Part shown: positions 23,833 through 63,029 of the stretch, in pieces
Layout of the letters: each line of letters starts with the position of its first letter
Position numbering within the stretch: position 1 is the first letter of the stretch
Assembly: GCA_003222895.1 (NCBI GenBank)
Contig: QHXI01000078.1
Span: 1-64,000, forward strand
Direction: 5' to 3'
DNA length: 64,000 bases
Source: Acidobacteriota bacterium
GTDB lineage: Bacteria; Acidobacteriota; Blastocatellia; Pyrinomonadales; Pyrinomonadaceae
Made by a program: the position numbers and the translations under genes
Notes under the pieces: model-generated
The model's database searches: none
The model's input: only the letters and a program-made list of their open reading frames with translations
What the model was told of the DNA's origin: nothing

Positions 23833-24846
23833 TTAGAAACCGGTTGCGGACGCTGTCAATGTGATTGCCGGAGCGGCTGGCGCGATCCGACGTTGGCCGA
23901 TTGAAGTTTCTGATACAAGTTCGCTTGCCAGCGACACGTCCAGCGCAAACAGGGCTCGAATCGTGCTGCGCGGCGAAAGGTGATCTTCGTCGGAAGAATC
24001 GTCGTCGACGCAATTGTGCTCGAAGGCCCGGGCCAATCGGCGCGGTAAAGGTTCCCAGCTCGCCGTTTGATTGATAAATTCGCGGGTCGCAATGACGCCG
24101 ACCAGATCGCACCCCAACTCCTCGGCGCGCTGACCCTGAATGCGCAGACCAGTTCGCGTCGCCGCGCGTCGCGCGATCGCTTTGAAAAGCGGACGAAGCG
24201 AATTAGTTTGACCGCTGGCGATATGCGTTAGCTCATGCGCGAGCACGCTAATCATCGCTTCGTCGGAACGCAAACCGGCGAGAAAGATCGTGCCGAATTC
24301 GATCGTGCGCGGCTCGCGCAAAACCACCGAGGCGTTGTCGCGCGCATCGACGTCGGGCTTAACGCGCCTCACTGATTGAACGCGGGCAACCGAGCCGTTG
24401 ATTTTGCCGCGTGAAACAGCTCCGCCGTACAAGTCGTACTCTTTCGCGAGTTTGATAATTGTTTCAGTGACTAATTTCCGCGTGGCCGGCAGCAAGCGGT
24501 CGGCACGACGTGCGCCATCGACGGCGTCAGGATTGTTCACCGGCAACGAAGGCCGCGACTGCATCTCATCGATCGGCATGCTGCCCTGCGGATCGCGAGT
24601 GCGTTCGGCACAGGTCGCGCCGATCGCGCGTTCGACCAGTCGTCGATCGGAAGCCGTGAACGTGTCGCGCGCAACGGTGGAGTGGGCACCGCTTCGTTGT
24701 TGAGCGTTGGACGCGAAATTGATGACAAACGCGAACAGCGCCACGCAAGGGATGAAGGATGAAGGATGAAGGATGAAATGCGAGGCTCGCCGATACCAAG
24801 CAACTCTTCGGCTCCTACGCCTCTTCGCTGATAGAAAGATATTCAT
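23833..24846 (-). CDS. M48-like metallopeptidase with N-terminus encoded by a heptad array
   Basis: ISVLAHELTHIASGQTN (HExxH); N-terminus HFILHPSSFIP is the translation of TTCATCC repeats. Confidence 0.65.
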   Translation of the reverse strand: MNIFLSAKRRRSRRVAWYRRASHFILHPSSFIPCVALFAFVINFASNAQQRSGAHSTVARDTFTASDRRLVERAIGATCAERTRDPQGSMPIDEMQSRPSLPVNNPDAVDGARRADRLLPATRKLVTETIIKLAKEYDLYGGAVSRGKINGSVARVQSVRRVKPDVDARDNASVVLREPRTIEFGTIFLAGLRSDEAMISVLAHELTHIASGQTNSLRPLFKAIARRAATRTGLRIQGQRAEELGCDLVGVIATREFINQTASWEPLPRRLARAFEHNCVDDDSSDEDHLSPRSTIRALFALDVSLASELVSETSIGQRRIAPAAPAITLTASATGF

Positions 24847-25642: not shown

Positions 25643-25650
25643 CGTCTGGG

Positions 25651-25779
25651 TTTCAAGTTTCAAGTTTCAAGTTTCAAGTTTCAAGTTCCAAGTCGCAAGT
25701 CTGAGCTGTTAATTTCTCACGTTCAACTGAACAGGAATCAGAGAATTAAGACTTGAAACTTGAAACTTGGAACCTGAAA
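25651..25779. repeat. Heptad array: (TTTCAAG)x5 TTCCAAG TCGCAAG facing (CTTGAAA)x2 CTTGGAA CCTGAAA
   Basis: Arms at 25651-25699 and 25752-25779, exact 7-nt phase. Confidence 0.9.
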
Positions 25780-34954: not shown

Positions 34955-35437
34955 TTGAAGAGAATGTTTGCTGTGCAAGCCGCATCATCGAAAGAGCACG
35001 AGTGTTGGATGCGCGAGGCATTACGGGCAGCTCGCGAAGCACGGGAGCGCGATGAAGTTCCGATTGGAACGTGCATCGTCATCGGCGATCAGGTCGCAAT
35101 TGCCGGCAATCGCACGCGCACCGATTGCGATCCGACGGCCCATGCAGAGATAGTGGCGTTGCGCGAAGCTGCCAGGAAAGTTGGCAATTACCGGCTGGCT
35201 GACGCGGTCGTTTATTCAACGATTGAGCCGTGCGCGATGTGCGCCGGAGCATTGATTCAGGCGAGAGTTCGCTTGCTGGTGTACGGCGCGACGGACGAAA
35301 AAGCCGGCGCAGTCGAATCTCATTTCGGCATCTGCGACGCGCCTCATTTGAATCATCGGGTTGAAGTCCTCAAAGGCGTTCTGGATTCAGAGTGCCGCGA
35401 GTTGATGCAGCAGTTCTTTCTAGCACGAAGAGGTTAG
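34955..35437 (+). CDS. tadA: tRNA adenosine deaminase
   Basis: DPTAHAEIVALREAARK; YSTIEPCAMCAGALIQARVRLLVYGA. Confidence 0.94.
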   Translation: MKRMFAVQAASSKEHECWMREALRAAREARERDEVPIGTCIVIGDQVAIAGNRTRTDCDPTAHAEIVALREAARKVGNYRLADAVVYSTIEPCAMCAGALIQARVRLLVYGATDEKAGAVESHFGICDAPHLNHRVEVLKGVLDSECRELMQQFFLARRG

Positions 35438-35494
35438 AGATTAGAGGCTAGAGGTTAGTGCGTTTTCTAACCTCCAATCTCTGACATCTAACAT
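35434..35494. repeat. Heptad array: (T/C)TAG cores at 35434/41/48/55 facing CTAACCT CCAATCT CTGACAT CTAACAT
   Basis: Exact 7-nt phase in both arms; the tadA stop codon lies in the first unit. Confidence 0.85.
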
Positions 35495-35507
35495 CTGTTT
35501 TTATTGC

Positions 35508-35597
<90 letters not shown>

Positions 35598-35601
35598 TGT
35601 C

Positions 35602-35705
35602 ATTGCCGATTGCCAATTGATGATTGCCGATTGGCTCGTTATAAGAAACGCGCTCGCGTCTGAACTGATCAATCGGCAATTGGCAATCGAAAATCGGCAA
35701 TCTCT
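35602..35705. repeat. Heptad array between tRNA-Ser genes: ATTGCCG ATTGCCA ATTGATG ATTGCCG ATTGGCT facing AATCGGC AATTGGC AATCGAA AATCGGC AATCTCT
   Basis: Five units per arm in exact 7-nt phase. Confidence 0.9.
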
Positions 35706-41877: not shown

Positions 41878-41980
41878 TTAGAGACTAGAGACTAGAGACT
41901 AGAGATTAGAGATTAGAGATTAGAGATTAGAGACTAGAGATTAGAGATTAGAGATTAGAGACTAGAGACTAGAGATTAGA
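41878..41980 (+). repeat. Heptad array TTAGA-(GAYTAGA)x14 between leuB and leuC
   Basis: 14 contiguous GAYTAGA units differing only C/T at one position. Confidence 0.97.
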
Positions 41981-41982
41981 CC

Positions 41983-43335
41983 GAAAACGAGCCGGCGCTG
42001 CTCTACATCGATCTGCATCTCGTGCACGAAGTGACTTCACCACAGGCGTTCGATGGTTTGCGCTCGGCCAGTCGCAAAGTGCGGCGTTCTGATCTCACCG
42101 TCGCCACGATCGATCATAACGTGCCAACGACTGATCGAAGCTTGCCGATAGCAGATGAAATCGCCGCGAAGCAAATTGAAGTACTGCGCTCAAACTGCGC
42201 CGAATTCGGCGTTCAGTTATTCGACATCGATTCGAAAGAGCAGGGAATAGTTCACGTAATCGGGCCGGAACTCGGACTCACTCAGCCCGGCATGACAATC
42301 GTTTGCGGCGACAGTCACACCAGCACGCACGGCGCGTTTGGCGCGCTCGCTTTCGGAATCGGCACCAGCGAAGTCGAACACGTCCTGGCGACACAATGCC
42401 TGCCGCAAAACAAACCGCGAACGATGCTCGTCAATATAAGCGGCAAGTTGGCGGAAGGCGTGACGGCAAAGGATCTCGCGCTGGGAATCATCGGGCAGAT
42501 CGGAACAGATGGCGCAACCGGTCACGTCATCGAGTATGCCGGTGAAGCGGTCCGCGCGCTTTCGATGGAAGGCCGCATGACGCTCTGCAACATGAGCATC
42601 GAGGCGGGCGCGCGCGCCGGAATGATTGCGCCTGATGAAACGACTTTCGACTATCTAAAAGGAAAACGTTTCGCTCCGCGCGATGAAAAATGGGACGCTG
42701 CCGTTGATTATTGGCGAACGTTGCCTTCGGATACTGACGCTTCGTTCGATCGAGTCGTCGAGATCGATGCTGCTACGATCGCGCCATGCGTCACATGGGG
42801 AACAAATCCGGGAATGGTCACATCGATCGAAGGCCTCGTTCCCGATCCTTCTGATGCGAACAATGATAACGAACGACGGTCAATTGAACGCGCGCTTGAA
42901 TACATGGCTTTGGAGCCGCACAAAAAGATTTCCGAGATTCCGATCGATCGGGTCTTTATCGGATCTTGTACTAACTCGCGGATCGAAGATTTGCGCGCGG
43001 CCGCGCGAGTGGTCAACGGACATCGGGTAAAAGAATCCGTGCGCGGCATGGTCGTTCCCGGATCTCAAAACATAAAGCACGCGGCAGAAGCAGAAGGCTT
43101 GGATCGAATATTCATCGACGCAGGTTTCGAGTGGCGTGAATCAGGGTGCTCGATGTGTCTGGGGATGAATCCGGATATTTTGCAGCCCGGCGAGCGTTGT
43201 GCTTCGACCAGCAATCGCAACTTCGAAGGAAGACAAGGCCGCGGCGGTCGCACGCATCTGGTCAGTCCAGCGATGGCGGCTGCGGCGGCAATCGCCGGGC
43301 ACTTTGTTGATGTGAGGCAGTGGGAATATAGATAA
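41983..43335 (+). CDS. leuC: 3-isopropylmalate dehydratase large subunit, N-terminus truncated at the heptad array
   Basis: Homology-like reading starts at [23 protein letters not shown] directly after the array; in-frame TAG at 41977; C-terminus [32 protein letters not shown]. Confidence 0.93.
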
Positions 43336-43419
43336 GTTTCAAGTTTGAAGTTTCAGGTTTCAAGTTAATAGAACGGACCTGAAACCTGAAACTTGAAACC
43401 TTAAACCTGAAACTTGAGA
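43334..43419. repeat. Heptad array filling the leuC-leuD gap: AAGTTTC AAGTTTG AAGTTTC AGGTTTC AAGTTAA facing CCTGAAA CCTGAAA CTTGAAA CCTTAAA CCTGAAA CTTGAGA
   Basis: Exact 7-nt phase; begins in the leuC stop codon and ends at the leuD ATG. Confidence 0.92.
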
Positions 43420-60498: not shown

Positions 60499-61722
60499 CT
60501 ATCGTTTGCGCGCGTGATTCTCTTTCGCTTTCATTAGCACGTCGAGCGACTGATAAATCTGCAGGTAGAGTTGCGTCTCGCGCGGAATTAAGGTGCGCCA
60601 ACCGCTGCCGGCGCGACGAATGTATCCAGGAATCTTTGCCGCGTTCGAGTTGTAACCGGCCGCCACGAGTTCAGTGACCGTCGCCTGCTTCGCAGTAAGC
60701 GCGCTCTGCACGTCTTCATTTGCCGACAAATCATTCCAGGTATCCTGCATGTAAAGCAGCATTGCTTCCAGCGCGTTGCCGTGATTGCGCATGCCGACGA
60801 CGAAGTCAGGATTCAATCCGACGCCTGGATGACGCTGCCGCATCAGCGCGTAACTCCAGGGAATCATCTGCACCATGCCGCCGGCGCCGGCTGAGCTGAC
60901 TGAATAGCGATAAGTGTCGAGTTCGTTCAGCGCATAGAGCGTGTAAATCTCTTCGAACAGCGCAATGCGATTTTCATTGCGGAAGCGATCGTGATCGACG
61001 TGCTCGACGACGCACAGTCGTTTTGCAATTTCGACCAGGTTTGGGGCGATTGGATTGCCGCGTTCGCGCAACCGCTTCGCGGCGAGATCGATCATCGCAT
61101 TGACGTACGTCTGGCCGGTCTTCATCAACTCCGGCGACAACAGAGCCGGATGCGCCGACGTGTAGTAGGCCATTTCCTTGAACACGCCGCGGCGCTCGAT
61201 CGGGAACTCAACCGCCAAAGGCAGGAGCGAACGGTTTTGATTATCGAAGATGTTGACGGCCGTGTTGACGCCGTTTGCGCGGACAATTCGCACCTGAACA
61301 GGCAGGCCGAGTGAACTAATCGCTGAAACTTGAGAACCTTTTGTCAGGAAAGTGCGCTTGTCGACGCGAATCAAATGAATCTTGGACGTTTCCGGCATCA
61401 CCGCCGCCACCGTCACGTATTCGATCGAAGGCGTCATCGCCGTCAAAACCGGACGTGCTTTCATCAACCTTTCAGCTTCATTAATGCGCAGGCGCAAACG
61501 ATTCGGCGAAAGATGACGCGAGTTTTCCCCGCGCCGATCTTCATCCTGAGCCGATCGATTCGAGACGTTCGCAGGCTCCTGGTACTTCGAAGTCTGGGCT
61601 CGCGTGGCGGCAACCAAACGCGGACGAGTTTCGGATTTGATCGATCGCGGTTGTTGAGCTTGAGCCGTGCCGGTGACCGAGAGTACAAACGCAAAAAGGA
61701 TTAGACTGGAGGGCAGTTTCAT
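60499..61722 (-). CDS. Secreted lytic-transglycosylase-like protein
   Basis: Signal peptide; EEIYTLYALNELDTYRYSVSSAGAGGMVQMIPWSYALMRQRHP. Confidence 0.65.
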   Translation of the reverse strand: MKLPSSLILFAFVLSVTGTAQAQQPRSIKSETRPRLVAATRAQTSKYQEPANVSNRSAQDEDRRGENSRHLSPNRLRLRINEAERLMKARPVLTAMTPSIEYVTVAAVMPETSKIHLIRVDKRTFLTKGSQVSAISSLGLPVQVRIVRANGVNTAVNIFDNQNRSLLPLAVEFPIERRGVFKEMAYYTSAHPALLSPELMKTGQTYVNAMIDLAAKRLRERGNPIAPNLVEIAKRLCVVEHVDHDRFRNENRIALFEEIYTLYALNELDTYRYSVSSAGAGGMVQMIPWSYALMRQRHPGVGLNPDFVVGMRNHGNALEAMLLYMQDTWNDLSANEDVQSALTAKQATVTELVAAGYNSNAAKIPGYIRRAGSGWRTLIPRETQLYLQIYQSLDVLMKAKENHARKR

Positions 61723-61807
61723 GATGACGAAATTTCAAGAAGGAGTTCTTCGCGGGAGTTCGAAGACGACCTCAGATTCGCGTAACGACACGCGCTTGTC
61801 AACCACT

Positions 61808-61939
61808 TTTTTTCTGGAAGATCGCGCGATCTTTTCCAGAATTTTTCTGGAAGATCACGACGCAATTTCCAAAAACGTTTTGGAAGGTTCGAAGGCGATT
61901 TCCAGAATTATTCTGGAACATATTACGTGCTGTTCCAAC
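61808..61939. repeat. Four 33-bp direct repeats built from TTCTGGAA/TTCCAGAA palindromes
   Basis: Units 61808-61840, 61841-61873, 61874-61906, 61907-61939. Confidence 0.88.
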
Positions 61940-61976
61940 TTTTTCCAAACGCGCAAAAACACAAGTGAGAACGCGC

Positions 61977-63029
61977 TCATCGATCGCGTTTGAGCAATTG
62001 TTGTTCCAACTCTTTCACGCGATCTTTTAGTTCTTTCAATTCGTCGCGCATCGCCGGAACGCGGCTGAGATGAGCATTTAAACGTTTGTATTCGTCGAGC
62101 GGTTGAATAGGAATGCCCCACCAAACTCCGGGACGGACAATCTTCCCGGGCAGAACTCCCGCCTTCGACCCAATGACGGCGCCGCTCTGCACGCGAATGT
62201 GATCGCCGAATCCGACCTGGCCACCGATCACGCAATCATCTTCGATCGTAACGCTGCCGCTGATTCCCGTTTGGGCGGCGATCACCACGCGCTCGCCGAT
62301 GTCGCAGTTGTGCCCCACATGAACCATGTTATCGAGCTTTGTTCCACGGCCTATGCGCGTTAGACCTAACGCGCCGCGATCAACCGTCGTGTTCGCGCCC
62401 AATTCGACATCGTCTTCGATCACAACCGTGCCGATCTGCGGAAACTTGTGATAGCCCATGTCACTGCGAACATATCCGAATCCATCTGCGCCGATAACCA
62501 CGCCGGCGTGAAGAATTACCCGGTCACCGATTGTCACGCCGTCTTCGAGGAACACGTTTGGATGAATGACGCAATCAGCACCGACGGTTACGTTGTCGCC
62601 AAGTTTTGCGCCGGCTCGAATTTGAGTTCCCGATCCGACCGTAGAATTTTCGCCGACGCAGACAAAAGCGCCGATGAAGACTTCGAGAGCGATGTCCGCA
62701 GTTTCAGCGATGACTGCGGATTGATGAATTTCCGGCTCGCGCTGCTTCGGTGGGTGCAAGACTTCAGCAATTAATGCGAAGGCCAGCTTTGGATTCTTAA
62801 CCGCAATCTGGCAGCGAAGTGACAAGCTCGAATTTTCCGGCACGATCAGGCACGAAGCCCGACTGTTGGTCGCTGCTTCGAAAAACTTTTCATCTTCGAC
62901 ATACGAGATATCGCCTTTAGCGGCGGTGTCGAGACTTGCAACCCGTTGAATTTGCGTCTCGGCCTTGCCGGCAACTCGGCCGCCGACAAGCGCCGCGAGT
63001 TCGGAAACTGACTTTGCTGATTGACTCAT
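61977..63029 (-). CDS. lpxD: UDP-3-O-(3-hydroxyacyl)glucosamine N-acyltransferase
   Basis: Left-handed beta-helix hexapeptides; GVVIGADGFGYVRSDMGYHKFPQIGTVVIEDDVELGANTTVDRGALGLTRIGRGTKLDNMVHVGHNC. Confidence 0.96.
   Translation of the reverse strand: MSQSAKSVSELAALVGGRVAGKAETQIQRVASLDTAAKGDISYVEDEKFFEAATNSRASCLIVPENSSLSLRCQIAVKNPKLAFALIAEVLHPPKQREPEIHQSAVIAETADIALEVFIGAFVCVGENSTVGSGTQIRAGAKLGDNVTVGADCVIHPNVFLEDGVTIGDRVILHAGVVIGADGFGYVRSDMGYHKFPQIGTVVIEDDVELGANTTVDRGALGLTRIGRGTKLDNMVHVGHNCDIGERVVIAAQTGISGSVTIEDDCVIGGQVGFGDHIRVQSGAVIGSKAGVLPGKIVRPGVWWGIPIQPLDEYKRLNAHLSRVPAMRDELKELKDRVKELEQQLLKRDR

Follow-up and report, generated by a model that had tools for sequence, protein, structure and literature searches.

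In the control regions of Lrp-type regulators, imperfect dyads line one face of the DNA at intervals of two or three helical turns (PMC2995911). The sites of class I activators are centred at -61.5, in the case of CRP, or further upstream (PMC2859248). The proximal subsite for the C-terminal domain of the RNA polymerase alpha subunit (alphaCTD), or proximal UP subsite, is AAAAAARNR at -46 to -38 (PMC2801614).

We analysed a 64,000-nucleotide stretch of contig QHXI01000078.1 (hereafter the window; its genome is G000), from an uncultured soil acidobacterium of the Pyrinomonadaceae / Blastocatellia group, in which an array of dyads separates lpxD from a gene for a secreted protein resembling soluble lytic transglycosylases (SLT-like). 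The closest architectural analogue of the array would be the multi-site operators of the Lrp/AsnC family (Ss-LrpB, E. coli Lrp), which also show dyads about three turns apart in the control region, in AT-rich DNA. The 33-bp spacing of the array fits this comparison. Lrp sites, however, measure 13-17 bp with an AT-rich dyad centre, whereas here the dyad is 24 bp long, its N14 centre is variable and not AT-rich, and the linkers are AT-rich; read in the less likely N9 register, the array would have 19-bp sites, close to the 13-17 bp of Lrp. The Lrp effector domain PF01037 (AsnC_trans_reg) was found in 0 of 7 genomes of the genus, versus 11 of 14 control genomes, and Lrp/AsnC was rejected as regulator of the array on this ground.

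At the locus, as in class I promoters of the CRP type, a dimer-sized dyad is centred some 60 bp ahead of the start, here a predicted one, and leaves space for alphaCTD before the -35 box. The CRP target is TGTGA-N6-TCACA. Both the half-sites and the N14 gap seen here differ from it, and there are four tandem sites instead of one. Sigma-70 UP elements share with the locus an A6-A7 tract at about -46 to -40 adjoining TTGACA, but lack the CCA/TGG half-sites and the dyad symmetry that are conserved in the array. Finally, TTCcaGAA-like letters at the linker dyads recall the eukaryotic heat-shock element (GAAnnTTC). This likeness is coincidental, since we know of no bacterial HSF and since, in G002 and G005, two other genomes of the genus, the symmetry does not extend beyond TTCCA/TGGAA.

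Anatomy of the array

The array occupied positions 61815-61937 on the minus strand, which is that of the gene, and consisted of four 24-bp TGGAA-N14-TTCCA dyads with a period of 33 bp, joined by 9-bp A-rich linkers (Table 1). The TTCCA/TGGAA half-sites started at 61815, 61834, 61848, 61867, 61881, 61900, 61914 and 61933, in strict alternation and with gaps of 14/9/14/9/14/9/14. The original prediction had counted about eight of them; exactly eight were in phase, and a ninth, at 61943, was out of phase with these. The whole window contained 121 half-sites, with a density of 9 per 140 bp over the array and a maximum of 3 per 140 bp anywhere else. Tandem Repeats Finder gave a period of 33 and a score of 90, and together with the half-site map it bore out the sequence, period and place initially described for the repeats. 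The units had been said to repeat exactly, which was correct for the period but not for the sequence, as their mutual identity was 64-76%. The junctions had been described as TTCCAGAATTNTTCTGGAA palindromes, which consist of the linkers and the half-sites on either side. Two of the three fitted this pattern, while the middle one was TTCCAAAAACGTTTTGGAA. There were 4 matches to the junction pattern against 0.03 expected, indicating that the array is not a product of chance.

Table 1. Features of the lpxD-SLT intergenic region and its two genes. Dyad centres are counted from the predicted +1 near 61767.
Feature	Position in window	Strand	Remarks
Dyad 4 (distal), TGGAA-N14-TTCCA	61914-61937	-	centre about -158; conserved in G006, G001
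9-bp A-rich linker, dyads 3/4	61905-61913	.	
Dyad 3, TGGAA-N14-TTCCA	61881-61904	-	centre about -125; conserved in five congeneric genomes
9-bp A-rich linker, dyads 2/3	61872-61880	.	10 bp in G005
Dyad 2, TGGAA-N14-TTCCA	61848-61871	-	centre about -92; conserved in five congeneric genomes
9-bp A-rich linker, dyads 1/2	61839-61847	.	10 bp in G002
Dyad 1 (promoter-proximal), TGGAA-N14-TTCCA	61815-61838	-	centre about -60; conserved in five; only the TTCCA half left in G004
12-nt linker GAAAAAAAGTGG, dyad 1 to -35	61803-61814	-	A7 at about -46 to -40 (predicted +1)
-35 box TTGACA	61797-61802	-	conserved in nearly all family orthologues
-10 box GAATCT	61774-61779	-	spacer of 17 bp, 18 bp in most relatives; predicted +1 near 61767
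Predicted leader-RNA 5'-end hairpin	61747-61766	-	structure kept in six congeneric genomes
Gene for secreted SLT-like (lytic transglycosylase-like) protein	60499-61722	-	407 aa
lpxD, upstream neighbour	61977-63026	-	TIGR01853, E 1.6e-99; seen adjacent to SLT-like gene in this genus only

An 11-aa periodic peptide, encoded by the repeats on the plus strand, had been suggested as an alternative. In the window, the plus strand does have an open frame of 108 aa (61667-61993). In G006 and G001, however, the orthologous frame contains stops, and a period of 11 codons is not maintained across the 34-bp steps of G002 and G005. The suggestion is refuted by these two features, and its likelihood is practically nil.

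Other tandem repeats were observed in the window. Arrays of 7-bp units (TTAGAGA x14.7, GTTTCAA x6.3, ACCTGAA x5.9 and others) were located at 24750-24777, 25650-25700, 35429-35702, 41878-41980 and 43334-43417, and heptamers appeared to be in excess.

Conservation of the array in the genus

The array was present at the lpxD-to-SLT locus in five congeneric genomes, that of the window included, with four dyads in the window, G006 and G001 and three in G002 and G005. The comparison genomes were mostly draft assemblies, and these five array-bearing species are a small sample. The SLT locus of G004 retained no full dyad, but only the final TTCCA together with the A-tract and promoter; the array is consequently not essential. 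The tree did not discriminate between loss of the array in G004 and its original absence there. The sequence and spacing of the half-sites are kept within the genus upstream of the orthologues, which is the conservation check proposed with the original prediction. The N14 gap was constant in 18 of 18 dyads of the five genomes (17 exact, one with TTACA). The other gap was mostly 9, with a single 10 in each of G002 and G005. The distance from the final dyad to TTGACA was 12 nt in all five array-bearing genomes.

The half-sites were identical to those of the window at 35/35 positions in G001 and 34/35 in G006. By comparison, the fourfold-degenerate sites of the SLT-like gene were identical at 72/167 (43%) and 106/185, respectively (Fisher test of half-sites versus fourfold sites, p = 1.3e-11 for G001 and 7e-7 for G006). 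Between the arrays of the window and G001, 22/27 positions were identical in the centres and 37/56 in the spacers. Judged by these comparisons, constraint on the half-sites is far above that on neutral sites.

We searched 119 genomes of the family with a sequence model built on the final 60 bp. It scored far above background at this locus in this genus only; background scores were met from about 22 bits, and the G004 remnant was about there (20.9). No array was found upstream of SLT-like orthologues outside the genus, and neither other loci of the genus genomes nor the remaining genomes of the family yielded a further array. A dispersed repeat or a regulon of arrays was rejected for this reason; repeats of the REP or MITE type come in many copies, and there was one array per genome.

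A single array per genome, with full dyads varying from 0 to 4, would suit a site that serves chromosome structure or partition, or else a tandem duplication that is neutral and devoid of function. We give scarcely any credence to either. The constraint far exceeds that of neutral sites, and the 12-nt register to the promoter is fixed in all array-bearing genomes. Moreover, the array shows no homogenisation: in the window, G006 and G001 the middle junction retains a sequence of its own (TTCCAAAA..TTTTGGAA).

Register of the dyads and isolated sites

The half-sites can be paired in two ways. The unit is more likely the 24-bp TGGAA-N14-TTCCA dyad than the TTCCA-N9-TGGAA junction palindrome, for three reasons drawn from the aligned arrays and the rest of the genome. 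The arrays of all five genomes begin and end on whole N14 dyads, every one with TGGAA first and TTCCA last and with no in-phase half-site left over. The length of N14 never changes, whereas N9 does (9 or 10). Finally, the genome of the window has one more N14 dyad, exact and isolated, outside the array. The N9 palindrome as unit was superseded by this register.

The isolated dyad, TTCTGGAA-N14-TTCCAGAA, occurred exactly once more in the genome of the window, in an intergenic segment (G000:C163:15358-15387), for 0.0007 occurrences expected in 4.77 Mb from base composition. The sister species G006 retains it with one mismatch, and the other five congeneric genomes lack it. Between G000 and G006 the arms are preserved and the inner sequence is not, the pattern that a protein site would be expected to show. 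Counted from the putative promoter at that site, the centre of this dyad is near -75, which is not in helical phase with -60. In total, such sites near a gene for an NAD(P)HX repair-like protein (loci L167 and L168) numbered one in G000 and two, with one mismatch each, in G006. These were the only other intergenic sites found; the other isolated N14-like matches that were inspected lay in open frames or in a single genome, and were discarded. The dyads upstream of the NAD(P)HX repair-like gene are possibly a second target of the same putative regulator. Among the papers searched, no bacterial one joined the octamers TTCTGGAA/TTCCAGAA to a palindrome or a regulator.

Two further elements were noticed in these searches. 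A stretch of about 90 nt (CTATCCCGAAAAGACGGATCGG...GCAGCGGCGGCGGGGAAA...GGCCGC-TTTT) upstream of the NAD(P)HX repair-like gene was conserved in all seven genomes of the genus (L167, G000:C163, within the matched stretch 1501-1921; orthologues L168-L174). Its end is terminator-like and no Rfam match was obtained at the three loci tested; it is a candidate for an unnamed RNA. A different dyad, TTCCACAG-NNN-CTGTGGAA, resembling facing DnaA-box-like sequences, was present as a single site in several genomes (G001:C188, G006:C45, G004:C508 and other genomes of the family).

Promoter of the SLT-like gene

The promoter, TTGACA-17-GAATCT at 61802-61774, directly follows the array. The -10 box is weak and non-canonical, and the +1 is a predicted position, placed seven bases past it. 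A TTGACAA...CGAATCT pair, with small changes, was found upstream of nearly all of the family orthologues examined, in differing gene neighbourhoods, which suggests that the SLT-like gene is probably its own transcription unit. This promoter, TTGACAAC-N-GCGAATCT, is unusually well conserved in nearly every family orthologue and is rare elsewhere in the genus genomes. In G004 the predicted leader hairpin has a different stem (GGGCUU/AAGCC) at the same place, suggesting a compensatory change.

Relative to this predicted start, dyad 1 is centred at about -59.5, outside the core promoter, as is the case for class I activators. In the window, no half-site was found between the end of dyad 1 and the ATG, a segment comprising the core promoter and the leader. 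This bears on the alternative that a repressor or a dual regulator uses these dyads as operators, wrapping or looping the DNA and blocking RNA polymerase. Lrp-type regulators, repressors among them, also have multi-site arrays with a three-turn spacing of the dyads (PMC2995911), and the sign of regulation cannot be read from the anatomy of the sites alone. In the window, however, no half-site covers the -35, the -10 or the start region; 12 nt separate the nearest one from the -35, and the A-tract in this gap is kept. We regard such a repressor or dual regulator as rather unlikely.

The A-tract itself, A6-A7 ahead of the -35 box, was kept in six of six congeneric genomes. In the window it reads AAAAAAAGT, which agrees with the proximal UP subsite AAAAAARNR at 8 of 9 positions, counted from the predicted +1. 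The array could in principle be an extended UP element or a segment of curved DNA that acts with no dedicated regulator, its A-tracts binding alpha subunits or bending the DNA. A-rich linkers are present at every unit, the last one giving the 8/9 match at -46, and AA/TT steps show a 33-bp periodicity, with a weak 11-bp periodicity in most array-bearing genomes. Yet TGG/CCA, for which A-tracts have no need, is among the near-invariant letters, and the A-rich centres are less conserved than the half-sites. The AA/TT power at 10.5 bp is not in excess, and curved DNA was rejected for lack of this phasing. Taken as a whole, a regulator-free element of this kind seems quite unlikely.

The SLT-like gene and its neighbour lpxD

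The assignment of lpxD upstream of the array was confirmed by TIGR01853 (Table 1). Orthologues of the SLT-like gene adjoin lpxD in six genomes of the genus; outside it, lpxD was not in the retrieved flank of the SLT-like gene. The label "lytic-transglycosylase-like" given to the downstream product was a fair one by way of distant homologues, but the relationship is remote and the protein of the window has no Pfam match of its own, nor any NCBIfam match. Sequence searches gave no convincing PDB match, and an AlphaFold model (pLDDT 77) submitted to Foldseek gave no PDB match with E < 0.001. Among the orthologues, PF01464 (SLT) was matched weakly by 3 of 16, with a best E of 0.029. Distant homologues matched it with E values of 8e-5 to 4e-4, of which one passed the cut-off and two fell just short of it, and carried SSAGARGLVQMIPSTY...AAAYNGGVGRV. 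These two features make a remote SLT relationship likely.

The array lies 3' of lpxD on the same strand, and its sequence in the window folds strongly (z of about -6.6). Hairpins at the 3' end of the lpxD transcript could on this basis serve as a terminator, a stabiliser or a processing site. The fold strength, however, is not kept in other species (z of -0.65 in G005, -2.9 in G002 and -1.9 in G004), although G005 and G002 keep the half-sites. No T-run follows the array on the lpxD strand. The sites are in register with the downstream promoter and not with the lpxD stop codon, from which they are separated in G005 by nearly 900 bp of other sequence. An intrinsic terminator or RNA hairpin was rejected, as the structure is not conserved between species and has no T-run, and to an RNA-level role in general we give little credence.

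A proposed upstream activator array

We propose that the array is the upstream activating region of the SLT-like gene, a multi-site region bound by a putative regulator; we hold this reading with modest confidence. The sites, their spacing and conservation, the position of the promoter and the occurrence at a single locus were observed directly. The conservation of sites and spacing, at one locus and directly against a conserved promoter, points to a multi-site regulatory array. Protein binding at the dyads is suggested by their constraint and symmetry, and activation by their position relative to the promoter, which favours an activator; the dimeric state of the regulator and its co-operative binding we infer in turn. 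The multi-site operator of the original prediction thus survives as a regulatory array, with the register of its unit changed to N14 and with a position that favours an activator over a repressor operator.

In this model, each 24-bp TGGAA-N14-TTCCA dyad would bind one dimer of a sequence-specific regulator. Four dimers, 33 bp or about three helical turns apart, would occupy roughly the same face of the helix; the phasing is approximate, as 33 bp correspond to 3.14 turns at 10.5 bp per turn. Binding would probably be co-operative, with A-rich bendable linkers between the dimers. The promoter-proximal dimer, at about -60, would contact alphaCTD and recruit the polymerase, with alphaCTD placed on the A7 tract (-46 to -40) beside sigma on TTGACA.

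The locus offers a natural multi-site array in which the number of sites and the length of the linkers vary between related species while the half-sites stay fixed. More tentatively, a regulator to which no site has yet been assigned might recognise TGGAA-N14-TTCCA and form a co-operative complex of four dimers, with an Lrp-like architecture but no Lrp protein, that controls peptidoglycan cleavage in this uncultured Pyrinomonadaceae-type genus, and the number of dyads (3 or 4) might be an evolving setting of response strength. To our knowledge, few regulators with known sites have been described in the phylum Acidobacteriota. The analysis yields a precise, testable motif (TGGAA-N14-TTCCA), a promoter as its target, and natural variants in which the number of full dyads is 4, 3 or none. 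The motif would allow a regulator to be fished out by pulldown, which would link it to cell-wall turnover.
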